Source: Flavobacterium lipolyticum
GTDB taxonomy: Bacteria > Bacteroidota > Bacteroidia > Flavobacteriales > Flavobacteriaceae
DNA length: 64,000 bases
Direction: 5' to 3'
Assembly: GCF_020905335.1 (NCBI RefSeq)
Contig: NZ_JAJJMN010000003.1
Coordinates: 124,001-188,000 of the forward strand
The stretch's first letter is position 1; the number at the start of each line of letters is the position of its first letter. Below the pieces are notes generated by a model. That model worked only from the letters and a program-made list of their open reading frames with translations, made no database searches and was not told the DNA's origin. Both the position numbers and the translations under genes were made by a program. Below are positions 11,032 through 62,703 of the stretch, in pieces.

Positions 11032-11195
11032 CACCCGCTTTGAGAAACAAGCGAAACAATAAAAAGAACACGTTCGTAGACATATTGAATTGACAGCCGT
11101 TTCGATGAAAATCGGAACAAAAGAATAAGAGTAATAGAATCGTAAGATTCGAAAAGAACCGATAGATATTCATCGCAATATAATATAAAAATATA

Positions 11196-12710
<1,515 letters not shown>

Positions 12711-12834
12711 AGAGCCTTAATGTTAGCCTAGTGCACGTTAAGGAAAAAAGATGATTATTTATGGGTCTCTGAATTGGAGATTGTATTACTCTTGCTGTTA
12801 ATTTAAAAAAATGAAAAGAATTAAGTAAAAACAG

Positions 12835-12908
12835 AGTCTCGTAGCTCAGCTGGTTAGAGTACTACACTGATAATGTAGGGGTCGGCAGTTCGAGTCTGCC
12901 CGGGACTA
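12835..12908 (+). tRNA. tRNA-Ile (GAT)
   Basis: The cloverleaf is read by hand: acceptor AGTCTCG pairs with CGGGACT, the D arm is GCTCAGCTGGTTAGAG, the anticodon loop is CTGATAA (GAT), and the T arm carries GTTCGAGTC. CCA is not encoded. It lies in the 16S-23S spacer, the usual place. Confidence 0.96.
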
Positions 12909-13055
12909 CTTTTTAAAACAATTGACAATTGATAATTAACAATTGATAATTAATAACTAAAAAGACTGTAAGTTTAATTTAAAAGGAAATTTTAGAGGTT
13001 GAGTGACCGTTTTAAGTACTGTTAACTGAGAACTGTTAACTGACAACTAAAAAAT

Positions 13056-13129
13056 GGGGGATTAGCTCAGCTGGCTAGAGCGCCTGCCTTGCACGCAGGA
13101 GGTCAACGGTTCGACTCCGTTATTCTCCA
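13056..13129 (+). tRNA. tRNA-Ala (TGC)
   Basis: Acceptor GGGGGAT pairs with ATTCTCC (two G-T pairs), the D arm is GCTCAGCTGGCTAGAG, the anticodon loop is CTTGCAC (TGC), and the T arm carries GGTTCGACTCC. It is the second spacer tRNA of the rRNA operon. Confidence 0.96.
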
Positions 13130-13319
13130 CTAAGGGCTATAAGCTATAAGCTGTAGGCCGTAAGCTAAAAAGCTTAAAGCGTATTGCTTAAAGCCTAAAG
13201 CGAAACAAAGTTCATTGACATATTGAGATAAGAAAATAATAAGAAAGTAGAAAGCGTTTTTTGTTATTCGTAACAAAAGACAAAGAAAAACGGTCTTGTT
13301 TTATAGCAAGATTGGTACA

Positions 13320-16200
<2,881 letters not shown>

Positions 16201-16377
16201 CCTTTTCCCTCCGAGCAATCGGAGGGAGGAAACTTTCTTAACAAAAAAACTTATTTGTTTCTTTATCTCAGTATGTTAAAATATTGTCCGCACGCGGAAA
16301 GTGACTAGTGAAGAGTGAGTAGTAAAGAGTCTAAGGACTAATTACTAAGGGCTAACAACTAATTACTAATAACCTTA

Positions 16378-16489
16378 AGGTGGTTATTGCGGCGGGGCTC
16401 ACCTCTTCCCATCCCGAACAGAGAAGTTAAGCCCGCCTGCGCAGATGGTACTGCAGTTATGTGGGAGAGTATGTCGTCGCCTTTCTTTT
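16378..16489 (+). rRNA. rrf: 5S ribosomal RNA
   Basis: About 110 bp with the conserved block CATCCCGAACAGAGAAGTTAAG and pairing ends (GGTGGTTATTGCGGCG with GTCGTCGCC). It lies 180 bp after the 23S and is followed at once by a terminator. Confidence 0.94.
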
Positions 16490-18400: not shown

Positions 18401-18593
18401 GATTTATGGTTTAAATATTCTTTTTATCGTTGACTGCGTTAGGGATGGGAGTGATATCCTTTTGCGCTTACTGTACATAAAAAAAACTGAAACTTCTATC
18501 GCAAAAGATTTAGCGGACAGCCCGACCCGTAGGGGAACGCCATAAAAATTGTTGTCTTTAATAGATTGATGTTTAAATGAGATATTAGTATGA

Positions 18594-34115: not shown

Positions 34116-34892
34116 ATGGAACTTATCAATACAATAGAAATGACGAAACCTTTGCATGAAATAATTTTAGAGTTATTTTATTTTGAAAGCAAAGGGAAAC
34201 CGTGTGAGTTTACAAAAAAAGAAATTTTGTGGAGGCTTAAAAATCCCAGTATTACAGAATATCAGATAGAAGAAGTACTCAATTGGATGGTGCATCATAA
34301 AAAACTAAACGAGAATTTAGGTTTGTACAGCCTCGATCGTTTTGAACTAATTGATTTAGAAGAAAAATTTAAAACCGAAAGATTGCACAAAGAAAAAAAA
34401 CAAGAGCCTATTTTTTTTACGAATTACAGTACAATAAACAATATACACAATGCCGCAAAACCTAAAGCGCTTGAAATATTTATTCAGTACATACTGCCTA
34501 CGTTTTTGCTTTCTTATATTGTGTTTATTTTTTTCTTAGTAAACAAGTTAAATGACAGTTTTGCCGTAAACAATAATAAAATTGAAGACGTTAGCGAGCT
34601 GACACTAAAAGAACCTAAAACGGGAGTGATTAGAAAAAAAAGAGCACTGTCTGACAAAGAAGTAAAAAGACTGTTTTCTAATCAGCATCAGAATATTTTG
34701 TATTTGAACAAGACTATAGATTCATTACAAAAACAGGTGAACAAAATTAATGAAATTCATACCACAGCAACTTTAGACTTAAAAAACCAGGTCAATTCTT
34801 TACAACCACAAGTCAATTCAATAGTCCTGCACATAACCGTTGTGCTGCTGGGATTTATTCTGTTGTTTTTCATGAAAAATGTTACGGATTAA
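34116..34892 (+). CDS. T6SS-associated winged-helix and membrane protein
   Basis: The start is set at ATG 34116; the frame extends upstream to 34035 inside tssR, but that extension is not protein-like. The protein has 258 residues. Residues 1-80 look like a winged helix (EILWRLKNPSITEYQIEEVLNWMVHHKKL), followed by a basic linker, a membrane helix (about 120-145), a charged coiled-coil stretch and a second membrane helix at the very C-terminus. Both ends of the middle part would be held in the membrane. It is the last gene of the structural operon. I do not know its function; a DNA- or protein-binding membrane adaptor is possible. Confidence 0.75.
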   Translation: MELINTIEMTKPLHEIILELFYFESKGKPCEFTKKEILWRLKNPSITEYQIEEVLNWMVHHKKLNENLGLYSLDRFELIDLEEKFKTERLHKEKKQEPIFFTNYSTINNIHNAAKPKALEIFIQYILPTFLLSYIVFIFFLVNKLNDSFAVNNNKIEDVSELTLKEPKTGVIRKKRALSDKEVKRLFSNQHQNILYLNKTIDSLQKQVNKINEIHTTATLDLKNQVNSLQPQVNSIVLHITVVLLGFILLFFMKNVTD

Positions 34893-34914
34893 AGGAAATT
34901 AGTAAAAAACAGAT

Positions 34915-34955
34915 AAAAGAGGTATTCTAAAATTATGCGGAATATCTCTTTTTGT
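34915..34955 (+). terminator. Terminator of the T6SS structural operon
   Basis: An AAGAGGTATTC / GAATATCTCTT hairpin followed by T5, 20 bp past the last stop. It is a diverged copy of the hairpins in front of both hcp genes. Confidence 0.75.
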
Positions 34956-35136
34956 GTTTACGGGAGTTAGATGAAGAAGTAAAATAAATGTTGAAAAAAT
35001 ATTTTTTGACTAGTAGACTGTTTTTTCAAAACGGATGAATTTTCTGTCAGCCCTTATGAATGCTGGATTCTTACATTTGAGAATTAAAAACATCTCTTTT
35101 TTTTCTTAATTCTTCTGAAAAAGATTACGAATTGAC

Positions 35137-35166
35137 TTGTTTTTTTAAAATGTATTTGTATATTCG
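35137..35166 (+). promoter_or_regulatory. Conserved promoter before hcp-1
   Basis: TTG at 35137-35139, a 19-bp spacer, and TATATTCG at 35159-35166 (one mismatch to TAnnTTTG). The same boxes with the same spacing lie before hcp-2. Confidence 0.65.
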
Positions 35167-35171
35167 TACAA

Positions 35172-35276
35172 ATATTGATTGCGAATCACCCTCATCTTCC
35201 TACAAGAAGCAATTAAAAAAAGTACGTTAGTACAAAAAGAGGTATTCTAAAATCATGTAGAATACCTCTTTTTTTT
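35172..35276 (+). ncRNA. Structured leader or small RNA before hcp-1
   Basis: The stretch from the promoter to a terminator-like hairpin (stem AGAGGTATTCTA / TAGAATACCTCT then T9, 35238-35274) contains the possible stems ATTCG/CGAAT and GTAC/GTAC. It is almost identical to 46645-46750 before hcp-2, while the sequence further upstream differs. It is either a small RNA of about 100 nt or an attenuator of hcp. The hcp ATG is 70 bp past the hairpin. Confidence 0.5.
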
Positions 35277-35346
35277 TGTTCATACTAGTCACACAAAAAG
35301 AAAGAGGATTCTGAAAAACTTTATTTAACAACTTAAATTTTTTATT

Positions 35347-35742
35347 ATGGCATTTAAATCAATTTTAGAATTCGAAGGAAACGAGTACCAAGTATTATTT
35401 TCAAAAGTTGATATGTTGAGACATACTGACGGTAAAGGAGCTGTTTCTTCTGAAATTAAAGGAGGAAGATTAAACTTGAGAGTAAAATCTACAGACAACA
35501 CTACAGTTATCGAACAAGCGGTAAACAGCCAGCACAAACCGGTAAGCGGAAAAGTAAAATTTTTCAAAGCTGACTCTGAGCAGGTAATGAAAGAACTTAC
35601 TTTTGAAAACGCTTTTATTGTGTTCTTTAGTGAGCAGTTAGACGCTTTGGCTGAAACTCCAATGACTACTGAGATTACATTCTCTGCAGAGAGAATTACT
35701 TTAGGTAATGCTACACTAGATAACAACTGGGCTAAAATTTAA
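35347..35742 (+). CDS. tssD: T6SS tube protein Hcp/TssD, copy 1
   Basis: 131 residues, the Bacteroidota TssD type (begins MAFKSILEFEGNEYQVL). Hexameric rings stack to form the inner tube and can carry effectors. It differs from copy 2 (46821) at only four positions (residues 5, 6, one Thr/Ser and one Arg/Lys). Strong codon bias suggests high expression. It is followed by its own terminator and heads effector module 1. Confidence 0.96.
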   Translation: MAFKSILEFEGNEYQVLFSKVDMLRHTDGKGAVSSEIKGGRLNLRVKSTDNTTVIEQAVNSQHKPVSGKVKFFKADSEQVMKELTFENAFIVFFSEQLDALAETPMTTEITFSAERITLGNATLDNNWAKI

Positions 35743-35755
35743 TTTTTCTCATAAA

Positions 35756-35792
35756 ACAAGAAGCAGTTGCGTACTGCTTCTTGTTTTTTTAT
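35756..35792 (+). terminator. Terminator after hcp-1
   Basis: A perfect ACAAGAAGCAGT / ACTGCTTCTTGT stem is followed by T7. hcp-1 is therefore probably transcribed alone at a high level. Confidence 0.88.
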
Positions 35793-35919
35793 TTTCAGAA
35801 TATGACATCTTTTAGCTTAAAATTGAATTCGGCACGAAGAACTTTAAAGTAAAGGGCTTTGACTATCCTCTGTTTAAGTTAAAAATTTTAAAGAATTAAA
35901 CTTAAAACTAGACAGATTT

Positions 35920-40685: not shown

Positions 40686-42737
40686 ATGGGAAAAACATTT
40701 GTATACAATACAGGAGCAGCGGCCGATGATATAAAAAAAGAAGAACTACGCCTGACTTTTGGGATTTTTATAGACGGCACACTCAATAATAAAACGAATA
40801 CCGATATGCGTAACAAACATAGTCGGGGTAAGGATGCAGACGGAAATATTGATTATTCAAAAGACAATGCTACGCTGGAAAGTGAAGACGAAAAAAAATA
40901 TAAAAAAATAAAGAATAAAGGACGCATAGAAGAACTTCTCTCCAAGAAAAATAAAACTCCTGCTGAGGAAGCGGAGTTTAAAGCTATTGATGAAAGAGAC
41001 AAATATCTCGTTGCCTCCTATAGAGTTCCTTTAAACGAGTTTGGTCTGGATCGTATGGGAACAGATAACAGTTATAGTAACGATTACACCAATGTGGCAC
41101 GCATGTGGCAATGCTGTGAACAAAAAAAATACGCCATTTATGTACCCGGTATGGGAACGGATCACCTAATGCGCGACAGCACAGACGGTTTTGCTTTTGG
41201 TTCAGGACAAACGGGTATACGGGCAAGAGTGCGTAACGCTTGTGAGCAAATTGCAGATAAAGTAGCACAGAAGTTGGACGGAAGTTCCGAAGAAACTAAA
41301 CTTGCCCAAATCACACTCGATGTATTTGGATTCAGCCGAGGTGCTGCTACGGCAAGAAATCTGGTTTACGAGGTAAACCATGATAGCGGTTACGCAAATG
41401 CAGTAAAAAAACAAATCCCTTGTGGAGTAGAATATATTGAAAGGCCCTATTCGGAATCCGGTAGTGTACGTATACAAAAAATGCGAACAGCCTTTGTTGA
41501 TGTTGATAATTATGAGATAAACAATAAGTATTTAGTAGGAGATCAGCTGCCTAAGATGGGGCATTTAGGATACAGTTTACTAAAAAAAACCGGCCTTGAT
41601 TTTCATGATTTAAAAAATGTAGAGATCATCGTCCGTTTCGTAGGGATTTATGATACTGTTTCCTCTTATTTTGAGGAGAATGGTGTTCGGGATCATTACG
41701 ACGATTATGGAAATGTGAAAGACGAAGGAGGCAAGCTCCTGAAAGAAGCCTGGTCAACACATTTTAATGATGATATTGCCGAGCTGCACCTGAATAATTT
41801 ATACTGCCAAAAAGTAGTACACTTTACAGCAAAAGACGAACATCGTCAAAATTTTGCCCTTACCCGAATCAATCAAATTCCTGGCAGATACATCGAAAAG
41901 AATTTTCCGGGAGTACATTGCGATATAGGTGGAGCTTACATGACCGAGAAAGAAGTTGTTGATGAAATCGGAACTCAAATGAAAGACAGACATTATGTTT
42001 CTGTTTTTCCAAATGGTTTTTTTGATGATAAAATGGGGTTAGAGGCACTAAGAAGAGACCTGATCAGACAGTATTGGTATAAAGAAGATCAAATCGAAAA
42101 AAAAATTCAATGGAGTTTTCCACCTTATCATAAACTTACAGGAACCCGTGGAAAAAAAATAGAAGGCACCGAAGATCAGTATGAAGGCGTTAAAAAAGAG
42201 TACAGTTATATTCCGCTGCACTTTATGGAAACGTATGCCAAAAGTACTGAAATGAAGCAGTATTTTGTAGAAGAAACAACTGTGAAATTTCCATTAGATG
42301 ATTTTCTAACAGGTGTAGAAAGCTATTTAACACCTTATGCACTGGATGAAACCAACGAGGTGAAAGAATGGGATTTCATCAGTGACGAAGTAATCGAACA
42401 AAGAAGACTGGAAAGGATAGAAAAGCAGAGATGCGAAGCGGAAATACAAAGTATAGAGCAAAAACTCAAAAATCATACTTATGAATACGAAGAGCTTAAA
42501 ATACCAATCGACAATTTACGGGTAGAACAATATAAACCTAAATTAGACTTTGAGACGCTTAAAATACCACAAAAAGAGCCTGAAATGAAAACATATACTA
42601 TAGAGGGAGTTACTGTTGTTGGTTACAGCTCACAAACCATGTTGAGAAAGTTAAGGAATGAATACCTGCATTGGTCCTCAACAAGAGATTGGTTCGGGAT
42701 GCAGCCCAATGAAGGCAGAAAAAGAAAAATACATTAA
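40686..42737 (+). CDS. Tle1-like T6SS phospholipase effector (DUF2235)
   Basis: 683 residues. The N-terminal alpha/beta-hydrolase domain (DUF2235) shows FGIFIDGTLNNKTNTDMRN at the start and the nucleophile elbow FGFSRGAATARN (serine about residue 217). Later acidic and histidine residues (VGIYDTVSSYF, PGVHCDIGGAY) complete the catalytic set seen in Tle1 phospholipases. The C-terminal 200 residues are helical and charged and could bind VgrG or an adaptor. It has no signal peptide, as expected for a T6SS-delivered toxin. The upstream lipoprotein is its likely immunity partner. Confidence 0.9.
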   Translation: MGKTFVYNTGAAADDIKKEELRLTFGIFIDGTLNNKTNTDMRNKHSRGKDADGNIDYSKDNATLESEDEKKYKKIKNKGRIEELLSKKNKTPAEEAEFKAIDERDKYLVASYRVPLNEFGLDRMGTDNSYSNDYTNVARMWQCCEQKKYAIYVPGMGTDHLMRDSTDGFAFGSGQTGIRARVRNACEQIADKVAQKLDGSSEETKLAQITLDVFGFSRGAATARNLVYEVNHDSGYANAVKKQIPCGVEYIERPYSESGSVRIQKMRTAFVDVDNYEINNKYLVGDQLPKMGHLGYSLLKKTGLDFHDLKNVEIIVRFVGIYDTVSSYFEENGVRDHYDDYGNVKDEGGKLLKEAWSTHFNDDIAELHLNNLYCQKVVHFTAKDEHRQNFALTRINQIPGRYIEKNFPGVHCDIGGAYMTEKEVVDEIGTQMKDRHYVSVFPNGFFDDKMGLEALRRDLIRQYWYKEDQIEKKIQWSFPPYHKLTGTRGKKIEGTEDQYEGVKKEYSYIPLHFMETYAKSTEMKQYFVEETTVKFPLDDFLTGVESYLTPYALDETNEVKEWDFISDEVIEQRRLERIEKQRCEAEIQSIEQKLKNHTYEYEELKIPIDNLRVEQYKPKLDFETLKIPQKEPEMKTYTIEGVTVVGYSSQTMLRKLRNEYLHWSSTRDWFGMQPNEGRKRKIH

Positions 42738-44239: not shown

Positions 44240-44956
44240 ATGGATTTTGAAAAGATAATTCCAATAGAATTAATGCAACGTAATATTGTAGCTAGTGTTG
44301 GGGGTGTTCAGGCAAGGGTAGTAGCAGCCACAAGACCAAAATGGGATGATATGATAAAGAATTATCCAAACACATCGGTAGATACAGTTAAACTTTATAA
44401 TGATATAGGTAATGGTTTAATAGATTTATACAAAAAAGCACCCGAAGATTGGGAAAACACTTGTTCTTTTAGGATGAGTAGAGGGTTAAATTTAAGTGGT
44501 TTCAAACTTCCAAAAGATAATTCAAAATATAGAGAAAAAGGTTCTAGCGGTGGGGTACATGTAGGAACAAGTACGGGAGTGACAAAAAACTATTATTGGT
44601 ATAGAGTAAAAGAATTGGGAAAATATTTAGAAGACCATTTAGGGGCTCCTGAGTTTGATGTAACACTTAAGAGAGCTAATTTAGGCGAAATAAAAGTTGG
44701 TTTGTCAACAACAGATTGGAGTAAGCTCAGTAAACTGAAAGGAATTGTTATGTTTAAAGTTTCAGGATGGGGAAATGCTTCAGGGCATTTTACTTTGTGG
44801 GATGGTAAAAACTTAATATATCCCGGAGATCCACGTCATGATGATCCTTCTAGTGAGCTTTATTATTTTAATATGAAATATGAAGCCTATCATCCTATCA
44901 AGAAGAAAAATATTGTTATACAAACAGATGAAATAAAGTTATGGGAATTAAAATAA
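44240..44956 (+). CDS. tae4: T6SS amidase effector Tae4
   Basis: 238 residues. Tae4 enzymes are NlpC/P60-type amidases that cut the peptide stem of peptidoglycan. The catalytic cysteine is in ENTCSFRMSRGLN (residue 75), and the histidine in NASGHFTLWDG (residue 183) is followed by an Asp. The family pattern YYWYRVKELGKYL in between is also present. It has no signal peptide. An RBS-like GGAGG lies after the previous stop. Three Tai4-like immunity genes follow, the first overlapping this gene by 16 bp. Confidence 0.93.
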   Translation: MDFEKIIPIELMQRNIVASVGGVQARVVAATRPKWDDMIKNYPNTSVDTVKLYNDIGNGLIDLYKKAPEDWENTCSFRMSRGLNLSGFKLPKDNSKYREKGSSGGVHVGTSTGVTKNYYWYRVKELGKYLEDHLGAPEFDVTLKRANLGEIKVGLSTTDWSKLSKLKGIVMFKVSGWGNASGHFTLWDGKNLIYPGDPRHDDPSSELYYFNMKYEAYHPIKKKNIVIQTDEIKLWELK

Positions 44957-45354
44957 AAAAGAATAACTATTTATTGTTATTTGTGCTTTTAATTTTTACA
45001 AAAGCAATAGGGCAGAATAAAGTAGCAGAAATAAAAAAATATGCTTTTAATAAATGTTTAAGCTACAATTATCAAAAAATTGATTCAACCTTTTATAACA
45101 CTTATAAAGATGCTTCGGGAGTTCAAATTTCAATAAACGGTAATTTTTTAGAAGATGATGAGCTTAAAAATAAAGTAATAGATTATGCTATTGCAATAAC
45201 TGGTTTGTATTATTCTCAGAAAAATAATTTGCACTTTGAGACAGGAGACAGAAATATTGTTCTTTGTAATTGTTTTGCTTTTTATGAATCCAAAGGTTTG
45301 GATTTATTTGTGAAGAAAATAGTTAATGTTAAAGATAAAATTCGAAAAAAGTAA
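44941..45354 (+). CDS. Tai4-like immunity protein, copy 1
   Basis: 137 residues with a signal peptide (cleavage about residue 24, AIGQ). A periplasmic helical protein with paired cysteines: KKYAFNKCLSYNY near the start and VLCNCFAFYESKGLDLFVKK near the end, matching the Tai4 pattern. It overlaps the end of tae4 in another frame, indicating coupled expression. It is expected to block Tae4 in the periplasm. Confidence 0.85.
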   Translation: MGIKIKKNNYLLLFVLLIFTKAIGQNKVAEIKKYAFNKCLSYNYQKIDSTFYNTYKDASGVQISINGNFLEDDELKNKVIDYAIAITGLYYSQKNNLHFETGDRNIVLCNCFAFYESKGLDLFVKKIVNVKDKIRKK

Positions 45355-45536
45355 AATTGCAATATTAATAAGTTATCATTCTGCCACTGTTTATCAGTTC
45401 AGTTTAGTCTAAATATAAAAATGATAAAAATTTTCTTGAAAAATAATAAATAGAGAGGATTCGTTTGTATAATATTTTTTTATTACCTGAAGTAGAAAAT
45501 TCAATAGGATTTAGTACAAACAAATAGATTAAGAGT

Positions 45537-45938
45537 ATGGTAATTAAAATAATAAAGCTATTTTCTTTTGTGAGCATCTTTTTATGCACTATCATTAGCT
45601 CTGCTCAAACCGTTGATATAAAACTAAAATTCGCGAAGAAGTATGCTTATTGTAATTGTATTTACACTAATAATGTCAAATTAGATGAAAAATACTTAAG
45701 TAATAAGTTCCAAATAAGTGATAAATCGAGTAAAGAGTTCATCGAATTGGGAAAAATTAAAGAGCGTGACAGTGAGAAAATTAGAAGCTTCACAGAAAAA
45801 ATAACGGGCGGTTTTTATTTGATTGAAAGTCCGTACTATTCTGAAAGCGGCGATAGTAATACAATTACAAGTACGTGTTTGGAATTTTATGAATCTAAAG
45901 AACTGGATAAATTTATAAAGAAATTGTACAAGAAATAA
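45537..45938 (+). CDS. Tai4-like immunity protein, copy 2
   Basis: 133 residues with a signal peptide (cleavage about residue 23, ISSAQ). It shares the layout of its neighbours (KKYAYCNCIYTN early, STCLEFYESKELDKFIKK at the end) but the middle has diverged. It lies 182 bp after copy 1. It may protect against another Tae4 variant. Confidence 0.8.
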   Translation: MVIKIIKLFSFVSIFLCTIISSAQTVDIKLKFAKKYAYCNCIYTNNVKLDEKYLSNKFQISDKSSKEFIELGKIKERDSEKIRSFTEKITGGFYLIESPYYSESGDSNTITSTCLEFYESKELDKFIKKLYKK

Positions 45939-46084
45939 GAAAGTGGTACTTTTTTGGCAACTATTTTAGTCCTAGAAAAAACGGATATATTAAGCTTAGT
46001 ATGTCTAACTAAACTTGAAATATTTTTTTATTCTTATGAAAAGAATTTTCAATTAGAGTTAGTGTAAGCAAACAGGTTAAAAAT

Positions 46085-46453
46085 ATGGGAACTAAAATAA
46101 TTTTAAGTTTTTTATTGATTGGAAGCATTGCCTATACTCAATCAAAAGATGAAGTACATTTGCTTAAGCAGTATTCATTGCAAAAATGTTTAAAAATCAA
46201 CTATCATTCGGTTGACTCAACATTTATTAGCCACGACTATTCCGCGTCATATATGCTTCAAGTAAAAAATGCAGATTATAATATGTTAAATAAACTGGAT
46301 GACTTTACTGCAAAAAATACCTCACAGTTTTATGAGATGGGAGTATCTGAAAATCTTGAAGATAGTAAAGCAAACTATATTTTCTGTCATTGTATGGATT
46401 TTTACGAATCGAAAGAATTGGATAAATTCATAAAAAAAGTATTGAAAAAATAA
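46085..46453 (+). CDS. Tai4-like immunity protein, copy 3
   Basis: 122 residues with a signal peptide (cleavage about residue 17, AYTQ). It contains LKQYSLQKCLKINYHSVDSTF early and FCHCMDFYESKELDKFIKK at the end. It is closer to copy 1 in the N-terminal half and to copy 2 at the C-terminus. It lies 146 bp after copy 2, the last gene of module 1. Confidence 0.82.
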   Translation: MGTKIILSFLLIGSIAYTQSKDEVHLLKQYSLQKCLKINYHSVDSTFISHDYSASYMLQVKNADYNMLNKLDDFTAKNTSQFYEMGVSENLEDSKANYIFCHCMDFYESKELDKFIKKVLKK

Positions 46454-46610: not shown

Positions 46611-46640
46611 TTGTTTTTCAAAATTGTATTTGTATATTCG
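46611..46640 (+). promoter_or_regulatory. Conserved promoter before hcp-2
   Basis: TTG at 46611-46613, a 19-bp spacer, and TATATTCG at 46633-46640, the same boxes as before hcp-1. Confidence 0.65.
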
Positions 46641-46644
46641 TACA

Positions 46645-46750
46645 AATATTGATTGCGAATCACCCTCATCTTCCTACAAGAAGCAATTATAAAAAGTACG
46701 TTAGTACAAAAAGAGGTATTCTAAAATCATGTAGAATACCTCTTTTTTTT
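46645..46750 (+). ncRNA. Structured leader or small RNA before hcp-2
   Basis: Almost identical to the leader of hcp-1, including the AGAGGTATTCTA / TAGAATACCTCT hairpin and T tract (about 46713-46748). The hcp-2 ATG is about 70 bp further on. Confidence 0.5.
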
Positions 46751-46820
46751 GTTCATACTAGTCATACAAAAGGAAAGAGGATTCTAAAAAAACAATTTTT
46801 AACAACTTAAATTTTTTATT

Positions 46821-47216
46821 ATGGCATTTAAAGCAGTTTTAGAATTCGAAGGAAACGAGTACCAAGTATTATTCTCAAAAGTTGATATGTTAAGACATAC
46901 TGACGGTAAAGGAGCTGTTTCTTCTGAAATTAAAGGAGGAAGATTAAACTTAAGAGTAAAATCTACAGACAACACTACAGTTATCGAACAAGCGGTAAAC
47001 AGTCAACACAAACCAGTAAGCGGAAAAGTAAAATTTTTCAAAGCTGACTCTGAGCAAGTAATGAAAGAACTTTCTTTTGAAAATGCTTTTATTGTATTCT
47101 TTAGCGAGCAGTTAGACGCTTTGGCCGAAACTCCAATGACTACTGAGATTACATTCTCTGCAGAGAAAATTACATTAGGTAATGCTACATTAGATAACAA
47201 CTGGGCTAAAATCTAA
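46821..47216 (+). CDS. tssD: T6SS tube protein Hcp/TssD, copy 2
   Basis: 131 residues, 127 of them identical to copy 1. The duplicated block reaches about 320 bp upstream to cover promoter and leader, so the whole expression unit was copied. It heads effector module 2 and has its own terminator. Confidence 0.96.
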   Translation: MAFKAVLEFEGNEYQVLFSKVDMLRHTDGKGAVSSEIKGGRLNLRVKSTDNTTVIEQAVNSQHKPVSGKVKFFKADSEQVMKELSFENAFIVFFSEQLDALAETPMTTEITFSAEKITLGNATLDNNWAKI

Positions 47217-47231: not shown

Positions 47232-47268
47232 AAAACAAGAAGCGATACCATATCGCTTCTTGTTTTCT
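47232..47268 (+). terminator. Terminator after hcp-2
   Basis: An ACAAGAAGCGATA / TATCGCTTCTTGT stem followed by TTTTCTT. It has the same outer stem as the hcp-1 terminator but a different loop side. From here to 47593 no gene is seen. Confidence 0.85.
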
Positions 47269-55300: not shown

Positions 55301-56546
55301 TCGTAAGTATGGTAAAGGTGGTAAACTGTTACAGGATGAAAAGTACCATTACAAATACGATGAACTGGGCAACCTGATACATAAAAGTTCCAGAAACATC
55401 AACGAAGAACTAAAATTCGAAGAACCCACCAACTGGATCGACAAACTGGCGGGAAACAAAACCGAAGAAACCAGATTACAGCAAGAACATGAGCAGTGGC
55501 AGGACGGCGACACCACCTACAGCTGGCTGGCGAATGGTATGCTCGAGAGCATTACCAACCCTGATGGGAAGAAAGTACATTTTGAGTACGATGCCCTGGG
55601 TCGACGCACCGCAAAAATTGCAAACCAAAAAATAAATCGCTATGTTTGGGATGGAAATGTTCTTATTCACGAATGGAAATACGATTTAAAAGATCGGCCT
55701 AAATTAATCGCCACTGAGGATGACTTAGTCTATGATAAACTCGAGCCTGTTGAAAACCTTATAACTTGGATATATCAAGAAGGAAGTTTTGTGCCAAGTG
55801 CCAAAATAATTGGAGAAGAAAAGTTCTCTATCATCAACGATTATATTGGTAGACCTGTACAAGCTTATAATAAAACTGGAAGTCTTGTTTGGGAAACCGA
55901 TTATGATATTTATGGAGATTTACGTAATCTGGAAGGTGATCGAAGTTTTATTCCGTTTAGGCAACTAGGACAGTATGAGGATGTTGAAACGGGTTTTTAT
56001 TATAATCGTTTCAGATATTATGATCCTAATATGGGGGTTTACATTTCAAAAGATCCCGTAGGGTTGAATAGTAGAGAATATAATTTCTATCGACATGTAA
56101 ATGATAGTAATAGTATTGTAGATATTTTTGGATTAGATTGGAATTATTTTTTAACGGATTCTAGTGGGAATACTTATTATCATGGTAGAGCAAACGATAA
56201 TGCTACTATGGAAGATGTTGCAAAAAGACATGCAAAAACAGATGGTACGGATGGAGTGAGATTTGGTGAAGGTGATAAAATGACTCGTGTTACTAGAGTA
56301 GGCTCAGAAAAAGATTTAGTTCGAGGTATTGAACAAAGAGGTGTTGAAGAAAATGATCTGTTAGGTTATAATAGTGATAAAGCAAGAGGAAATAAAATAA
56401 ATGGTATTTCTGAAGCCAAACAAGCTAAACCTAAAGGGATCGAAAGACTAAGTCTTGCTGATGATTTACTGGATGGTAGAAAAGTAAGTGAATTACCATC
56501 GCTTCAAGAATTAGAGTTTGACAAAAAATTTAAAGGTTGTAAATAA
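52326..56546 (+). CDS. Rhs polymorphic toxin, full length, with N-terminal PAAR-like region
   Basis: 1406 residues. Residues 1-200 form a PAAR-like tip region (ATVHVNGFKRGNSD, GHESMNFFASQTVFSDGTRMSPKGHM, PTGKPVMVGGPYPPDWGG). About 210-330 is DUF6531-like (NLINGAVIYEGSDFSITSPIPLNWERSWYSD). RHS/YD repeats fill about 390-1190. The RHS core motif IPFRQLGQYEDVETGFYYNRFRYYDP and YISKDPVGL (about 1243) mark the cleavage region. The last 135 residues are the toxin: YYHGRANDNATMEDVAKRHAK, RGIEQRG and RGNKINGISEA resemble a GIY-YIG/URI-type nuclease, a tentative call. The rhs shell would encapsulate the toxin until delivery by VgrG-2. The next gene is the likely immunity gene. Confidence 0.93.
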   Translation: MLLTDNHLTIVVGIDIHFTTLPPFNPFHPYIGIVMDPFDYVPFLGATVHVNGFKRGNSDTSGIIIPLQHIPLFTPPWLMMPIIGHESMNFFASQTVFSDGTRMSPKGHMLMTCNDIGIPLSMSLGKTKIGKKMLPFAPTLFAPTSFSLPIPTGKPVMVGGPYPPDWGGVLTGLLASIGFSTLMKKARGLIKKFNTSGKSPKGLKRILCRFGFEPINLINGAVIYEGSDFSITSPIPLNWERSWYSDSPYVGWLGHGVHSVYDRAVELYPEDDALGLRMDDGRLVAFPTLLPEEEFYLREEKTTIKRTQEGYSAYEHSSKLLYEFTLFNGKKYQLTKISNPDGLCIVFEFTANRLNKIIDAAGRAIKVSTKDGFIQKMELVGPEQDELLVAYEYDEDGNINAIIDALQKPTTIEYENHLMVKKTDRNGQTFYWEYDNENRCTHTWGDGGWQEGWMEYHPEEGYNLVTDANRAVTTYYYEPSQLVTQVKDPMGNSTFYDYTEFMELYREIDPEGRILGFNYDDRGNKTGTVYPDGTEEIMIYDEENRPSIAIDPEGNKTVYLYKEDREDQLKTIIAPDKSTSHFTYNDNGLLASVAKNNNKLELIYDDQFNLIEWRENSEKLKSWEYDHRGRVQAIYTPMQMADYFSYDALDRVRQIVEKDSNVIQFTYNNYDEVIALKDNKNSIKFSYTPMGSLATREQNGVKVRFDYDKMEQLQGIKNEDNEVYYFARNKAGQIVKETAFDGMVKKYQRNLAGEVTRIDHGNGKFTEYEQDALGRITRADYHDGTWETYSYNKNGLLTEAVNQNLSILLERDEMGRVVKETQQQQLDKDDNAITITSTYNKLGQRIGINSSLGAEISTHYDSKGQLERIEAQSNELKEQHQKWETTLKRDELGREIERFTTGGLHIKTSYNNNGKQKEQEVFANGKRTGSRFYNWDTNQQLRSAVNQMTSSITYFDYDDFGNLAKADYDGKGQLYKTPDAVGNLYKTPDRSDRKYGKGGKLLQDEKYHYKYDELGNLIHKSSRNINEELKFEEPTNWIDKLAGNKTEETRLQQEHEQWQDGDTTYSWLANGMLESITNPDGKKVHFEYDALGRRTAKIANQKINRYVWDGNVLIHEWKYDLKDRPKLIATEDDLVYDKLEPVENLITWIYQEGSFVPSAKIIGEEKFSIINDYIGRPVQAYNKTGSLVWETDYDIYGDLRNLEGDRSFIPFRQLGQYEDVETGFYYNRFRYYDPNMGVYISKDPVGLNSREYNFYRHVNDSNSIVDIFGLDWNYFLTDSSGNTYYHGRANDNATMEDVAKRHAKTDGTDGVRFGEGDKMTRVTRVGSEKDLVRGIEQRGVEENDLLGYNSDKARGNKINGISEAKQAKPKGIERLSLADDLLDGRKVSELPSLQELEFDKKFKGCK

Positions 56547-56551
56547 ATATT

Positions 56552-57301
56552 ATGCAAGAAGAACTAAAAAATGTCCACGATATGTGGAATTTTAAATTAT
56601 TTGAAGAATATAAAAAATGCAATAAAGAAATTATTATTGCTTCTTTCTTAGCAAGTTTTAGTTCAAATAAAAGAGAACTACGTTCTGGACTACCTGTTTT
56701 TGCTATTATGCAGACATTTCCTAATCATGAATTTGTTTTAAGAGAAAATGAGGATTTGTCCCGGGAATCTCCTTGTGAAATATGTTCTACAGCTTACGGT
56801 TATCCAAAGGAGTTAAGTGAGAAAAATTTACAAATATTGCATATGTGCATAAGTGAAGGAGGATTATTAGGTCATAGATTATCAAATTACTACAATTATT
56901 TGCTTGTTTTTAATAATAATGCAGATGTAAAAAATGCAAAAGTTAATGAGGAAGATCTTCGCATTTTTTCTGAAATACTTGATATTCTTTTAAATATTGA
57001 AGAGGATGCTACTTTAAAAAAAGAAGTAATTAAAAGTATTGGAAAAATTAAAGGATTCAAAACAAAGCCCGAACAAAGACAAGTTTTGTTGGAAACTTTA
57101 GGGTATTGCAGTATTTTGGAGACTGAAAAATACAAAGGCTTATTAAAAGAATATACCAACTTAGCTGTTGCCCCAAGAAAAACACATAGCTCAGACTGGA
57201 ATTATCCAGTAGATTTTTGGGTTGGCAAAGATGGAATCAATAAAGAAGCTTTTAAATTTTGGTTTGGGGATTATAAACAATTGGAAAAATACTGGAAATA
57301 A
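56552..57301 (+). CDS. Candidate immunity protein for the full-length Rhs toxin
   Basis: 249 residues, cytosolic, no known family recognised. It starts 5 bp after rhs. A CEICSTAYGYPKE segment around residue 75 is the only striking motif, and the rest is helical and acidic. A cytosolic immunity protein fits a nuclease toxin. A terminator lies 120 bp downstream. Confidence 0.8.
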   Translation: MQEELKNVHDMWNFKLFEEYKKCNKEIIIASFLASFSSNKRELRSGLPVFAIMQTFPNHEFVLRENEDLSRESPCEICSTAYGYPKELSEKNLQILHMCISEGGLLGHRLSNYYNYLLVFNNNADVKNAKVNEEDLRIFSEILDILLNIEEDATLKKEVIKSIGKIKGFKTKPEQRQVLLETLGYCSILETEKYKGLLKEYTNLAVAPRKTHSSDWNYPVDFWVGKDGINKEAFKFWFGDYKQLEKYWK

Positions 57302-57421
57302 AAAGTTTAATTAGGTAAATGTAGTAGATTGTCTATTTAAAATAATTGGAATTTCCGAAATTCACGCGATTGAGAGCATCTTACTCATTAAGTAAAAGAG
57401 CATGTAAAACATAAGAAAAGA

Positions 57422-57449
57422 GAACCTCGCTTCATAGCGAGTTTTTTTA
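57422..57449 (+). terminator. Terminator between the rhs operon and the first displaced tip
   Basis: A CTCGCT-TCAT-AGCGAG hairpin followed by T7. It would stop transcription before the rhs tip that starts about 15 bp later. Confidence 0.7.
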
Positions 57450-57461
57450 TATAGAAGAAAA

Positions 57462-58322
57462 AATGTTCTCACACACGAATGGAAATACGATTTAAAAGAT
57501 CGTCCAAAATTAATTGCCACTGAGGATGACTTAGTCTATGATAAACCGGAACCGATTGAGAATTTAATCACTTGGGTTTATGAAGGAGGTTCTTTTGTAC
57601 CAAGTGCTAAGATTGTTGGAGAGGAAAAGTTCTCTATCATCAATGATTATATAGGTCGTCCTGTACAGGTATATAACGAAAAAGGTGATGTAGTTTGGGA
57701 GACTGATTACGATATTTACGGGAATTTGCGGAACCTAAGAGGAGATCGAGGTTTTATTCCTTTCAGACAGTTAGGACAGTATGAGGATATAGAGATTGGA
57801 CTTTACTATAACAGGTATCGTTATTATTCTTTTGACACTGGAGTGTATATTAGTCAGGATCCAATTGGGCTAGATGGTGGAGATGCGTTTTATTCATATG
57901 TCTATGATAGTAATAGTTGGGTTGACCCTTTTGGTTTAGTAAAAGCACCAAGTACTGTTCCAACTTCTTCAGGAGTTTACACTTTGACAAATTCTACAAC
58001 AGGGGAGGCATATGTTGGTTCTGGTTTAAATGCTAATAGTAGGATGTCAGATACTAGTCATACAAAAGCGCAATCAATGTTATCTCATCCAGATACAAAA
58101 GTTGCTTTTACTCCTGTAGATTTGGGAGATGCAGATGATTGGAGATCTCAAAACAGAATTTTAAGACATTTTGAACAACAAGAGTATGAAAGTGTCAAAA
58201 ACACTGGGCAGTATGAAATGTTAAATTCAAATAATCCGGAAGCATCAAGTAAAAAAACCAGAAATGCAGGTATTGTAAAAGATAAAAAAGCTTCAAAAAA
58301 AGTAAAAATAAGTTGTAATTAA
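57462..58322 (+). CDS. Displaced rhs 3' tip 1 with GIY-YIG nuclease toxin
   Basis: The frame is open from 57438 but has no ATG; homology to the full rhs begins at about 57462 (matching 55657). An ORF caller would place the start at a TTG (57726). The first 160 codons copy the RHS core (IPFRQLGQYEDIEIGLYYNRYRYY, YISQDPIGL, WVDPFGL). The rest is a new toxin with SGVYTLTNSTTGEAYVGSGLNANSRMSDTSH, a GIY-YIG nuclease start (Tyr, Tyr, Arg), and the conserved Glu in LRHFEQQEYE. It cannot make a full Rhs protein alone; it probably serves as a replacement tip through recombination. An LRR-like gene follows. Confidence 0.82.
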   Translation, partial: NVLTHEWKYDLKDRPKLIATEDDLVYDKPEPIENLITWVYEGGSFVPSAKIVGEEKFSIINDYIGRPVQVYNEKGDVVWETDYDIYGNLRNLRGDRGFIPFRQLGQYEDIEIGLYYNRYRYYSFDTGVYISQDPIGLDGGDAFYSYVYDSNSWVDPFGLVKAPSTVPTSSGVYTLTNSTTGEAYVGSGLNANSRMSDTSHTKAQSMLSHPDTKVAFTPVDLGDADDWRSQNRILRHFEQQEYESVKNTGQYEMLNSNNPEASSKKTRNAGIVKDKKASKKVKISCN

Positions 58323-58327
58323 TTATT

Positions 58328-59209
58328 ATGTATACAGAAGTTAAAAAAGCTATTATAAATTCAAATAGTAAAAATTGGTATTTTTCAATTGAAAAACAAG
58401 ATTTTGGAGGGAATGTTGAATATAGACAATATTTGGATTTTCCAAATGAAGATGAGTACTTAGATATCAAATCAATTACATTTTCAATTACTTCTAATGA
58501 TGAAGAAAGAATAACAAAGTATCCTGAATTTATTGGGAAACTATTAAATTTAAAATCATTAATTATTCCGATAGATTGGCTAGATAAAATAGAGATACCG
58601 GCAAATATTGAAGTTTTAAAGTTAAATTCTCCAGTATCTAATTTTGATAGCCAACATGAATTACCAAATAATTTAATTTTGAATAATTTAAAATATTTAT
58701 CAATTTCTGAACTTGCAAAACCATGTTTATTCAATGTTGTAAGTTTTCCAAATATAGAATGGATAGATTATGATTTAGCACCAGAGAAAAATACTAATAG
58801 AATATTTGAATTATCAAAACTAAGTAATCTAAGACATCTGATATTCGGACATGCAAAAAATTTGGATGTTTTTCCTTACTTTATTAATCACAAAATTGAG
58901 ACTTTGGAATTATTTGCTTGTATCGGCAAGAATTTTCCAATTGAAAAGATAGTTCATTTTAAAACTTTAAAAAGTTTGTATATTAATAATATTTCGGTTG
59001 TTTTTGATTGTAATATCTTACTGGAGTTGGAAGAACTGGAAGAGTTATATTTGTTAAATATCAAAAATGTTATCAATGTTGAAAAAATATTGGAACATAA
59101 TAAAATAAATAGAATATCAATAAAAGCATGTGGTAATCCATTTAAAAAAATAGGGAAGAATAGTTTTTTTGAGAAAGGATATAGCTCTTTAGCTATTGAT
59201 TATGCTTAA
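58328..59209 (+). CDS. Leucine-rich-repeat-like protein, candidate immunity to the GIY-YIG tip
   Basis: 293 residues, cytosolic. Irregular leucine-rich repeats are visible: LLNLKSLIIPIDWLDKIEIP, LNNLKYLSISEL, LSNLRHLIFGHAKNLDVFP, FKTLKSLYINNIS, LEELEELYLLNIKN. It starts 5 bp after the toxin tip. Immunity role is inferred from position. Confidence 0.8.
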   Translation: MYTEVKKAIINSNSKNWYFSIEKQDFGGNVEYRQYLDFPNEDEYLDIKSITFSITSNDEERITKYPEFIGKLLNLKSLIIPIDWLDKIEIPANIEVLKLNSPVSNFDSQHELPNNLILNNLKYLSISELAKPCLFNVVSFPNIEWIDYDLAPEKNTNRIFELSKLSNLRHLIFGHAKNLDVFPYFINHKIETLELFACIGKNFPIEKIVHFKTLKSLYINNISVVFDCNILLELEELEELYLLNIKNVINVEKILEHNKINRISIKACGNPFKKIGKNSFFEKGYSSLAIDYA

Positions 59210-59392
59210 TGAGACGGAGTGAGGAATTATTTTCTAGCTAAGATTATAAAGGACTAAGGTTGCTTTTTTTAGTAGATAATGATATGAATTTTTAATACAA
59301 TTAACATGGATAAAAGGATAAATCTAAAAATAATAATAGATCGTTAATACATAAGAAAGAATTAAAAAACTACATGAAACATTTTGTTATAA

Positions 59393-59590
59393 GAAAGTCT
59401 TTTGATCTCTAACGATAAGGTTATAAAAAAACTAAACCCCGCTCATCTCAGCGGGGTTTGTTGTGAATATTGGAATCAATTTTCGATTTCTTTCGCGGGT
59501 CTGATAATCAGCATGTTTTTCATTACGGTAATGGTCAAATTTCTGTCGATAGTGAATACCTCCGTTAGCGTGAGCGTCACGTTTATGAAC
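59393..59590. repeat. Cassette-boundary repeat A
   Basis: Begins with a TCTTTTGATCTCTAACGATAA-like phrase, then an AAACCCCGCTCATCTCAGCGGGGTTT terminator hairpin (about 59436-59461) and about 130 bp ending near GAGCGTCACGTTTATGAAC. The same unit recurs as copy B (62065-62262) and as a cut copy C (63471-63518), each time after an immunity gene. A minus-strand ORF in copy A is broken in copy B, so I do not call a gene. Confidence 0.8.
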
Positions 59591-59665
59591 GCAAAGTTGT
59601 CTTGTTCTGAAAAAAGTTTGCATATTTATACTTAATCCTAAAATAGATTTACATTCCTATTTTAG

Positions 59666-59808
59666 TACTACTATTTGTTTACAATAATTACCCCTGATAA
59701 TCTTGCAAGTGGACGAACATACTATACATCAGCGGAGATTGAGGCTAAAATGATAAATGCTAAAACAGGTGATATAAAAGATGGTAAAGTGAATATTCAT
59801 TGTCATTA
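59666..59808 (+). pseudogene. C-terminal remnant of a lost Rhs toxin
   Basis: An open stretch of 47 codons without a proper start. The readable end is ITPDNLASGRTYYTSAEIEAK, then MINAKTGDIKDGKVNIHCH and a stop. It looks like the last part of a polymorphic toxin. The next ATG (59818), ten bases after this stop, begins a likely immunity gene. The RHS core before it has been deleted. Confidence 0.55.
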
Positions 59809-59817
59809 AAACTAAAA

Positions 59818-60423
59818 ATGGAAAATAAATATCAAGAAAAAGTAGATAAGGAAATTAATGAGGTAGTTAACCCTATCCGTAATAATTGGGATCAATTTAC
59901 TGAAAAAGAATTGGAAATTCTCTTAAAAAAACTTGGAAGCATATGTAGAGATGAAACTTCATTGCTAAGGAAAAATATCCTTTCAGATATTACGCTTGTT
60001 AAAGCTTTGGTAGAAATTGGAGAAAGGTATAGTAATAACTCTAAAATATTAATTGAAATAGTATCTTCTATAAATAATATGAATAAAAGATACGATTTAG
60101 AGATTACAGATGAAACTTTTCACTTTCTTATTGATAAAACAAAAAATAAGAAAGTAAACTTTTATATTTCAATTTTTATAGCAGAATTATCTCAATTTAC
60201 AAAGTATGGTAGTAAATGGGAGTATATTATGTCTATTCCTAATATTGCACCTAAGGAAAAATCAATAAATACGTTTTATCGAATAATTAGTAATAATATA
60301 GACGAGATACCTGCCAACTATAAATCGGATGTTGTAAAAATATTCGAAAAAACTTTAAATAGTTCTAATTTACACGAAGTGACGATCAATAAATATTTAA
60401 AGATTATATCAGATTTGAGATAA
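59818..60423 (+). CDS. Orphan immunity-like helical protein
   Basis: The start is set at ATG 59818 (MENKYQEKVDKE), since the frame's earlier start overlaps the toxin remnant. The protein has 201 residues, all helical (HEAT-like character), with no signal peptide. It follows a toxin remnant, so it may be a kept immunity gene whose toxin was lost. Family not recognised. Confidence 0.75.
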   Translation: MENKYQEKVDKEINEVVNPIRNNWDQFTEKELEILLKKLGSICRDETSLLRKNILSDITLVKALVEIGERYSNNSKILIEIVSSINNMNKRYDLEITDETFHFLIDKTKNKKVNFYISIFIAELSQFTKYGSKWEYIMSIPNIAPKEKSINTFYRIISNNIDEIPANYKSDVVKIFEKTLNSSNLHEVTINKYLKIISDLR

Positions 60424-60472
60424 TATTATCGGTTCGAAGTAAAATTTGACGTAAAATAGAAAAAAAAAGAAA

Positions 60473-60500
60473 AACTGCTTCAATATGGAGGCAGTTTCCA
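60473..60500 (+). terminator. Hairpin before displaced tip 2
   Basis: AACTGCTTC / GAGGCAGTT stem with a 6-base loop. A very similar hairpin lies at 62675-62700, before the next module. Confidence 0.55.
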
Positions 60501-60576
60501 TTTATTATATTTATTCTATCAACAAAGTATTTGGTAATGTAATATTTAATGGCTTATAGTTTATATTACGAGTGAA

Positions 60577-61499
60577 GAATAAATCGTTATGTTTGGGATG
60601 GAAATGTTCTTATTCACGAATGGAAATACGATTTAAAAGATCGGCCTAAATTAATCGCTACTGAGGATGATTTAGTCTATGATAAACCGGAACCGATTGA
60701 GAATTTAATTACCTGGGTTTATGAAGAGGATTCTTTTGTTCCATGTGTTAAGATTGTTGGAGAGGAAAAATTTTCGATCATCAATGATTATATTGGTAGG
60801 CCTGTACAAGCTTATAATGAGAAAGGTGATGTAGTTTGGGAAACGGATTATCACATTTATGGAGATCTCCGTAATCTAAAAGGAGATAGAAGTTTTATTC
60901 CTTTTAGACAGTTAGGGCAGTACGAGGATATAGAAACAGGCCTTTATTATAATAGGTTTAGGTATTATAATCCTGACAGTGGACTGTACTTATCACAAGA
61001 CCCAATAGGGCTTCTGGGGAGTAATCCTACTTTGTATGCCTATGTTCATGATTGTAATAGCTGGGTAGATGTATTTGGATTGGCCAATGAATTCGCTATC
61101 GGAAGTTACGGTAGTTTGACAGGCCCGGCACACGTAGGAGATAATCTGACTGGGCATGAATTACTTCAAAGTGCATGGTTAAGACAAAATCATAATATAA
61201 CTAGGAGTAGTGCAATTGGTCAGTTAAATCCCTCTATTGCATTAACTGAACCTAATATGCATAAGAACATTACCGCGTTACAGAATAAGTACAAAATGGG
61301 AGGAACTAAGTTAAAAGGACAATCAGCTTTGCAAAATATAAATAGAAATGCTGCATTGACAAGACGTGGTATATATGAGGGGTTACTTACTAGAGGTTGG
61401 GAGTCTTCAAATGCAAAAAGATATGCTACGGAATTAACAAATAAACTTAGAGATGATGCAATTGATTTTGCAAAGAAACAAGGTTATATATGTCACTAA
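60577..61499 (+). CDS. Displaced rhs 3' tip 2 with a GHE-motif toxin
   Basis: Homology to the full rhs begins at about 60577 (INRYVWDGNVLIHEW, matching 55630), right after an in-frame TGA (60573). No ATG start exists; an ORF caller begins at a TTG (61032). The RHS core is intact (IPFRQLGQYEDIETGLYYNRFRYY, YLSQDPIGL). The toxin (about 140 residues) has GDNLTGHELLQSAWLRQNHN, NPSIALTEPNMHKNITALQ and a helical end. Spaced histidines suggest a metal-dependent nuclease or RNase, but this is not certain. Confidence 0.82.
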
Positions 61500-61511
61500 A
61501 AATAAAAAAGA

Positions 61512-62054
61512 ATGAATGAATTGTATGCTACTTGTTTGATATATGACAAGACTTTAGACGCCAGAATAGGGGGTAATCCTCCTAAAGTTATTGAAAATGA
61601 TATTCCGGAAGATTATAATTTTTATGCAGTTATTAACCATCCAGAGAAGCAAGATAAAATGCTCTCAATAATAATACATAATAATTTTGATGTCCTTTTA
61701 GAGAATAATATTTATCCTGACATATCTGTAAAAGTGATAGAACATGAATATTCTGAAATCGGAGATAGGAAAGATAAGGTGATTGAAGACCTTGGAATTT
61801 GTTCTATAAGTAATTATTCGACAGAGAATTTAAGTGAATTTTTATTTATAAAAGTTGGAGGAGAGCCACGTTTGATTCAACCTAAAAGTTACTTTTATGA
61901 AAAATTAGAGAAAGATGGTTATTCATTTTTTTTACAAATAGAAGAAGAAGGATACTATGATGGTATGGATTATGTATTTATGTATGGAGCATTATATTTG
62001 TATAAACACAATATAACAGGCGAAATAATAGCAGGTTTTTGGCAATATTCTTAG
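61512..62054 (+). CDS. Candidate immunity protein for tip 2 (DUF1963/YwqG-like)
   Basis: 180 residues, cytosolic and acidic. The C-terminal part FIKVGGEPRLIQPKSYFYEKL, FLQIEEEGY and YGALYLYKHN resembles the DUF1963/YwqG pattern (GG.P..IQ...LLQI). It starts 12 bp after the toxin stop. Immunity role from position. Confidence 0.78.
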   Translation: MNELYATCLIYDKTLDARIGGNPPKVIENDIPEDYNFYAVINHPEKQDKMLSIIIHNNFDVLLENNIYPDISVKVIEHEYSEIGDRKDKVIEDLGICSISNYSTENLSEFLFIKVGGEPRLIQPKSYFYEKLEKDGYSFFLQIEEEGYYDGMDYVFMYGALYLYKHNITGEIIAGFWQYS

Positions 62055-62064
62055 CTAAATGTTA

Positions 62065-62262
62065 CGCGAAGTCTTTCAACATGTAACTACAAGATTATCT
62101 AAAACTAAACCCCGCTCATTTTAGCGGGGTTTGTTGTGAATATTAGAATCAATTTTTAATTTCTTTTGCTGGCCTGATAATCAGCATGTTTTTCATTACG
62201 GTAATGGTCAAATTTTTGTCGGTAGTTAATCCCCACTGGCGCGAGCGTCTCGCTTGTGAACA
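62065..62262. repeat. Cassette-boundary repeat B
   Basis: Second copy of repeat A, including the AAACCCCGCTCATTTTAGCGGGGTTT hairpin (about 62109-62134). It follows the immunity gene of tip 2. Confidence 0.8.
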
Positions 62263-62324
62263 TCATTAACAAAAATTGATTTAACAGATAGCCCGCTCCG
62301 CAAAGTATACCTCACAAGCGCTGC

Positions 62325-62674: not shown

Positions 62675-62703
62675 AAGCTGCCTCAATACAGAGGCAGTTT
62701 CTT
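62675..62703 (+). terminator. Hairpin before the last module
   Basis: GCTGCCTC / GAGGCAGT stem, a variant of the hairpin at 60473. Confidence 0.55.

Follow-up and report, generated by a model that had tools for sequence, protein, structure and literature searches.

Layout of the two hcp loci

The window, which is the whole 64,000-nt stretch of Flavobacterium lipolyticum DNA analysed here, belongs to a host genome of 5.77 Mb and carries a Bacteroidota T6SS with TssN, TssO, TssR, TssC, a ClpV-like ATPase and two TssD/Hcp genes. The closest Hcp relatives (99%) are those of Flavobacterium sp. UGB4466 and F. tructae. Each firing of the T6SS uses up Hcp, its tube subunit, which makes Hcp supply a natural point of control. 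Upstream of both hcp-1 and hcp-2 the same order is found: TTG-N19-TATATTCG, a leader of about 105 nt, a 16-bp terminator-like hairpin with a T-tract, about 70 nt, and the ATG. The features are as follows.

35137..35166, + strand: hcp-1 leader promoter (TTG at 35137-35139, 19-nt spacer, TATATTCG at 35159-35166)
35171..35277, + strand: hcp-1 leader RNA, about 105 nt, from the predicted start to the end of the T-tract
35175..35216, + strand: P1 stem, UUGAUUGC (35175-35182) with GCAAUUAA (35209-35216); two of five scored pairs changed on both sides
35183..35193, + strand: Y1, pyrimidine-rich segment between P1 and P2, GAAUCACCCUC; predicted to pair with R1 (putative antiterminator) or R2
35196..35209, + strand: P2 hairpin, CUUC-CUACAA-GAAG; two of four pairs changed on both sides
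35222..35233, + strand: P3 hairpin, GUAC-GUUA-GUAC; two of four pairs changed on both sides
35234..35249, + strand: R1, 5' arm of the terminator hairpin P4; three of 11 scored P4 pairs changed on both sides
35258..35277, + strand: Y2, 3' arm of P4 (35258-35273) running into the T-tract (35269-35277), from the terminator scan and the covariation count
35284..35289, + strand: ACTAGT element 3' of the terminator, conserved also where the hairpin is weakened and absent from copy G052c
35301..35312, + strand: R2, a near-repeat of R1, AAAGAGGAUUCU, 35-46 nt upstream of the ATG; predicted to pair with Y2 or Y1
35347..35742, + strand: hcp-1 (TssD; PF17642, 127.2 bits)
46611..46640, + strand: hcp-2 leader promoter, the same set as before hcp-1
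46645..46750, + strand: hcp-2 leader RNA, by match to the hcp-1 leader
46774..46785, + strand: R2 of hcp-2, by match to R2 of hcp-1
46821..47216, + strand: hcp-2 (TssD; PF17642, 129.3 bits)

The promoter boxes, the hairpin (35234-35273), the T-tract and the roughly 70 nt to the ATG at 35347 had been described in a first-pass annotation and were all recovered, with the same set at 46611-46820 before hcp-2. The accessible text of a study on flavobacterial transcription places the promoter box TAnnTTTG at -12 to -5 (PMC9723704), so transcription of hcp-1 is predicted to start near 35171. A promoter pattern of this kind (TTG-N17-22-TAnnTTTG-like, at least five of six box letters) was present at the leader in 24 of 33 copies collected from the genus; in G301 the box at the same place is TAAATTTG or TATATTTG. 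Between the T-tract and the ATG the same pattern, which a weaker promoter would escape, was found in 0 of 33 copies. A start between the hairpin and hcp, which the first-pass annotation had named as the finding that would speak against its reading, is thus without sequence support. A promoter before the terminator with none between terminator and gene, as judged by this pattern, is the arrangement of an attenuator.

No short upstream ORF starting with ATG is conserved among 32 leaders, and TTG frames vary in length and are often broken. A leader-peptide attenuator was rejected for want of a conserved ORF before the terminator. The leader had no Rfam match at gathering score, the best weak match being RefA9 (25.3 versus 49 bits).

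Distribution of the leader and association with one hcp clade

BLASTN of the leader against 299 congeneric genomes detected near-full leaders in 10 of them, comprising 17 full copies and one partial copy (G052b), and short matches only in seven further genomes. A covariance model built from these 18 copies was run on 398 congeneric genomes and gave, among the matches listed, 29 matches above 58 bits in 15 genomes. All 29 directly precede an hcp gene of the clade MAFK[AS]-LEFEGNEYQVL. The comparative covariance test suggested by the first-pass annotation was thus positive: 15 of the 398 genomes carry an RNA that shows compensatory changes, and every strong match lies directly before hcp. One of the 29 matches (L028) is a well-kept leader before the frameshifted hcp copy G284b.

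Some model match at E ≤ 0.1 was obtained in 153 of the 398 genomes; we read these weak matches as mostly ordinary A/U-rich terminators. The next-best match (51.5 bits, in G267), the sole one between 50 and 58 bits, was considered as a standalone leader and proved to be an ordinary terminator at a gene end. Among the matches listed for the 398 genomes, no leader locus stood apart from hcp. Because searches with the model on sets larger than 40 genomes applied stricter filters and scored about ten candidates per genome, weak leaders may have escaped detection. In 299 family genomes, the best match beyond the own genome reached 44.0 bits, which is noise level, no leader was found in plasmids, and the exact core pattern was not found in viral contigs. 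As far as these searches reach, the leader appears to be restricted to Flavobacterium.

TssD genes are present in at least 57 of the 299 genus genomes, and the search with hcp-1 gave matches in at least 56. Hcp copies of at least 89% identity occur in 10 genomes, exactly the 10 that hold near-full leaders; one G052 copy has 71% identity and the rest at most 40% among the matches listed, the second, stop-ridden fragment of the broken G284b copy being left aside in these classes. In those 10 genomes, 23 of the 26 clade hcp copies have a leader match above 41 bits (the frameshifted one counted), the exceptions being G075d, G245d (28 bits) and G052c, in which no leader was seen. Thirty loci of other TssD subfamilies were inspected by eye. 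One TssD match in genome G175 scores 128.6 bits, like the clade, and has an internal stop; the hcp-1 search gave nothing above 37% identity there among the matches listed.

Duplication of the leader-hcp unit and a probable older relic

The stretch 35137-35346 and its hcp-2 counterpart are 94% identical over 210 nt. From the -7 box to the T-tract (about 120 bp) they differ by one substitution and one T, in agreement with the near-identity first reported for the two leaders. With 91% identity at fourfold sites, hcp-1 and hcp-2 are recent copies, so the near-identity of two leaders is weak evidence by itself. It is the cross-species comparison, and not the identity of the two copies, that carries weight for a presumed conservation of the leader.

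The sequence upstream of the promoter had been called diverged; it is in fact partly kept (74% over 140 nt), because the 3' end of the DUF5457 gene, the last gene of the structural operon in the window, is present here as a decayed copy. The local alignment score of 35029-35136 with the DUF5457 3' end of the window was reached by 3 of 500 shuffles, and that with its G157 counterpart by 0 of 500; for the stretch upstream of hcp-2, 0 of 500 shuffles reached the score with either 3' end. In six of the 30 copies examined (G075b, G245b, G114b, G157, G052a and G373), an ORF with the DUF5457 C-terminus stops 16-23 nt short of the -7 box; in the own genome a decayed stub takes this place upstream of each hcp gene. 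The corresponding features are given below.

34915..34953, + strand: probable relic of an older hcp leader with the hairpin kept, just past the DUF5457 stop; hairpin 90% identical
35035..35130, + strand: decayed DUF5457 3' end carried with the leader-hcp unit, from local alignment against shuffles

The diverged hairpin copy previously noted at the end of the structural operon was found again at 34915-34953. Against the whole-leader model it scores only 31.1 bits (E 0.014). At the same place, a related metagenome-assembled genome (nzgw149, L162:986-1082) has a match of 56.5 bits, an intermediate form in which part of P1 is kept, as seen by eye, and which lies about 240 nt upstream of a whole leader and its hcp. 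The hairpin at 34915-34953 is probably a relic of an older hcp leader. The promoter-leader-hcp unit duplicates as a module, here together with the DUF5457 stub.

Structure and conservation of the leader RNA

The fold of 35165-35280 is more stable than that of shuffled sequences (z = -6.2; 0 of 200 shuffles as stable), largely because of the P4 hairpin. A terminator scan calls P4, with two sites in 34800-35900 versus 0.6 expected, and the sequence has the form of an intrinsic terminator, with 16 pairs directly followed by nine T. A run of 6-9 T follows the hairpin in 18 of 18 copies of the first set.

The alignment comprised 32 leaders from the 33 collected, G052c being omitted as it has no leader. 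On these, 94.9% of the cells of P1-P4 are paired, and changes on both sides were found in 9 of 24 pairs versus 2.5 in shuffles, with 0 of 500 shuffles reaching this count and slid structures giving at most four; identical rows were taken once here and in the comparison of Y1:R2 energies across copies below. RNAalifold on the first 18 copies gave no double changes, and the covariation stems mainly from the more distant copies. P3 variants identified by eye include GCAC/GUGC in G299b, GUAU/AUAC in G301 and AUACU/AGUAU in G284c.

Leader identity was 0.895 compared with 0.751 at hcp fourfold sites (25 copies, 300 pairs; leader higher in 276 of 300), with six copies of diverged hairpins set aside and G284b omitted for its broken hcp. 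Between those six and the rest, leader identity was 0.719, no higher than the fourfold value of 0.725. One of the six, G299c, had been set aside as weak in the terminator and does fold one (13 pairs). The ACTAGT at 35284-35289 is among the best-conserved letters of the untranslated region, copies with weakened hairpins included.

Four alike segments and their predicted competing pairings

Y1 (GAAUCnCCUC) resembles Y2, and R1 resembles R2 (AAAGAGGAUUCU), so that the leader holds four alike segments in the order Y1-R1-Y2-R2, which is a new observation of this work. The energy of each pairing within its own copy was compared with that of permuted copies, a permutation in which shared ancestry remains. 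For 21 representatives, the p values were 0.0002 for P1, 0.0005 for R1:Y2, 0.002 for Y2:R2, 0.02 for Y1:R1 and 0.20 for Y1:R2, with 0.20 and 0.42 for two control pairings; for 13 representatives, they were 0.0005, 0.004, 0.008, 0.04 and 0.26, with controls of 0.37 and 0.36.

In the predicted nascent fold, which ends before Y2, at least six Y1:R1 pairs form in 29 of 32 copies (not in G052b, G075c or G245c). Among the copies found later (F. branchiicola, F. chilense and nzgw149) Y1:R1 is present in five of six predicted nascent folds, and one of them has GGGU instead of GAAU in Y1 and still pairs through G-U. Y1:R1 amounts to only about -8 kcal/mol in the own genome, and no more than 11 of 21 representatives have a Y1 that outperforms shuffled versions of itself at p < 0.05; Y1:R1 is the weakest link of the attenuator reading. 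Of 32 leaders cut at the T-tract, 28 fold R1:Y2 with at least 11 pairs, and 26 retain it in the optimum of the full-length RNA. With Y2 available, the terminator is thus predicted to dominate.

Two folds are predicted to compete in the read-through RNA: R1:Y2, frequently accompanied by Y1:R2, and Y1:R1 with Y2:R2. The predicted optimum is the latter for hcp-1 and the R1:Y2 fold for hcp-2 and most copies. The Y2:R2 complementarity appears copy-specific, which fits a cis element, although part of this signal may merely mirror the terminator, as R2 resembles R1. Being transcribed only after the T-tract, R2 comes too late to affect termination there, and may stabilise the ON fold. Y1:R2 is about equal across copies (own -9.88, permuted -9.89 kcal/mol). 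We also considered R1/R2 as a genome-wide protein site and rejected it, the exact 17-mer occurring at three places only, all at the T6SS cluster; with up to two mismatches there were 39 matches versus 27 for a reversed control pattern, which we read as near background.

A proposed attenuator of Hcp supply and its alternatives

We propose, with about even confidence, that the leader is a cis-acting transcription attenuator of Hcp supply, a reading that would explain its constant position upstream of hcp, its terminator, the competition between pairings and the copy-specific complementarity of Y2 and R2. Transcription would start near 35171, and the RNA would form P1, P2, P3 and then the R1-Y2 intrinsic terminator, a structure that the comparison of copies supports. 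Before Y2 is made, Y1 may pair with R1 in an antiterminator that has P2 and P3 inside it and is incompatible with P1. As long as this pairing persists, the polymerase would continue into hcp, and Y2, left free, would pair with R2 and so fix the read-through mRNA in its ON fold. Formation of P1, which would compete with Y1:R1 as an anti-antiterminator, would instead lead to R1:Y2 and to a stop of transcription after about 105 nt. The balance would be tipped by some trigger, such as a protein, a ligand or another RNA, at P1, P2 or P3. R1:Y2 is weakened before intact hcp genes in G075c, G114c, G245c and G075d (-3.8 to -4.7 kcal/mol), and these copies together with the leaderless G052c indicate that the switch is dispensable there.

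The first-pass annotation had suggested either a small RNA or an attenuator that controls tube production. The structured, conserved leader is borne out, and of the two readings the attenuator is favoured on present sequence evidence, because no leader was found alone and Y2 has copy-specific complementarity to R2 beyond the terminator. The main rival is a trans-acting small RNA, in which the terminated leader is the product, hcp is expressed by read-through and Y1 pairs with R2-like sites to balance the hcp copies. Judged by sequence, the leader comes with a promoter and a terminator of its own, more than one leader copy is present in several genomes, and the complementarity of Y1 to R2, seen in most copies, is about as good between copies as within them, as action in trans would need. 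However, a leader apart from hcp was not found in the genomes searched, the copy-specific Y2:R2 fits a cis element, and the exact R1 17-mer is confined to three places at the T6SS cluster. The own genome also gave no match to Hfq (PF17209; the control search was positive in 5 of 14 genomes), although Hfq-free small RNAs are possible. We consider this rival rather unlikely.

Slightly less likely again is that the hairpins form a 5' untranslated region protecting or tuning the hcp mRNA, with most polymerases passing what only looks like a terminator. Hcp is presumably needed in bulk, and three of the copies with a weak terminator (G075c, G114c and G245c) keep Y2:R2 at -10.3 to -11.5 kcal/mol, while G075d (-4.4 kcal/mol) does not. 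Nevertheless, the T run behind every hairpin of the first set is what an intrinsic terminator needs, and Y1 and P1 would be superfluous for a protective stem. The leader might also be a dual RNA, a cis switch for its own hcp whose terminated form pairs through Y1 with R2 of other hcp mRNAs. We hold this combination to be doubtful; if true, the several hcp copies of one genome would share one control of T6SS-tube supply.

It is improbable that the hairpin merely ends the structural operon while hcp has its own promoter further down: where a DUF5457-like ORF stops shortly before the -7 box (the 6 of 30 copies above) the hairpin would stop operon transcripts too, but none of 33 copies shows a promoter match downstream of the hairpin, hcp copies lacking an adjoining DUF5457-like ORF retain the leader, and P1-P3 covary. 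A DNA operator for a regulator, suggested by the near-perfect 16-bp inverted repeat and its little variation in the first 18 copies, is highly improbable given the varying spacer length (a two-base deletion in G245b and G114b), the T-tract on one side only and the RNA covariation of P1-P3. If the attenuator reading is true, the leader would be a compact switch with defined segments and would help to find out what Flavobacterium senses ahead of T6SS-tube production.

Comparison with known systems

Attenuators of the trp and pyr type have a promoter, alternative successive pairings and an intrinsic terminator before the first gene, as is predicted for the hcp leader. The hcp leader differs from them in having no conserved leader peptide, known ligand or known RNA-binding protein, in preceding a secretion tube gene and in its fourth segment beyond the terminator. 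The 5' regions described for Flavobacterium psychrophilum in the accessible text of PMC9723704 share the genus, the sigma-A promoter type, structure and a presumed cis function; the attenuators suggested there involve leader peptides before amino-acid operons, unlike the hcp leader, and the term "type VI" is absent from its main text. GibS and other intergenic small RNAs of Bacteroides thetaiotaomicron, as presented in the accessible part of PMC7366714, are also Bacteroidota RNAs with a promoter and an intrinsic terminator, whereas the genomes searched yielded no hcp leader separate from hcp. In the accessible portions of the open-access literature, including PMC7535981, PMC9993120, PMC11109978, PMC9723704 and PMC7366714, we found no report of hcp transcription attenuation or of an hcp leader RNA.

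Flavo-1 RNA (RF01705) is another structured flavobacterial RNA with a copy in the window; it lies at 18424-18531, between the rRNA operon and tssB/tssC (42.4 bits versus a gathering score of 42), and has no match to the hcp leader. The rRNA operon is complete (11195-16485; 16S, two tRNAs, 23S and 5S) and is located upstream of the T6SS cluster.

Other features of the window

In most of the 18 copies, the terminators 3' of the hcp genes (35753-35787 and 47232-47266 in the window) share an outer stem resembling CAAGAAGC/GCUUCUUG, and the inner stem varies. The leader motif ACAAGAAGC resembles the 5' arm of this terminator in most of the first 18 copies. In G052b, the motif and the 3' terminator changed roughly in step, which favours a pairing between the two; G284c and G301a do not match, and we regard the pairing as unsupported.

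Between a Tle1-like effector gene (40686-42737) and hcp-2 lie three tandem small-protein paralogues (44941-46453) with a start that resembles a signal peptide by eye. The one compared with Pfam has no match, and the three are possibly immunity genes. The region 55628-63511 contains three related blocks of about 300 bp (at 55628, 57434 and 60575) and further repeats at 59428/62101; as a guess, these are perhaps displaced Rhs-type 3' ends.
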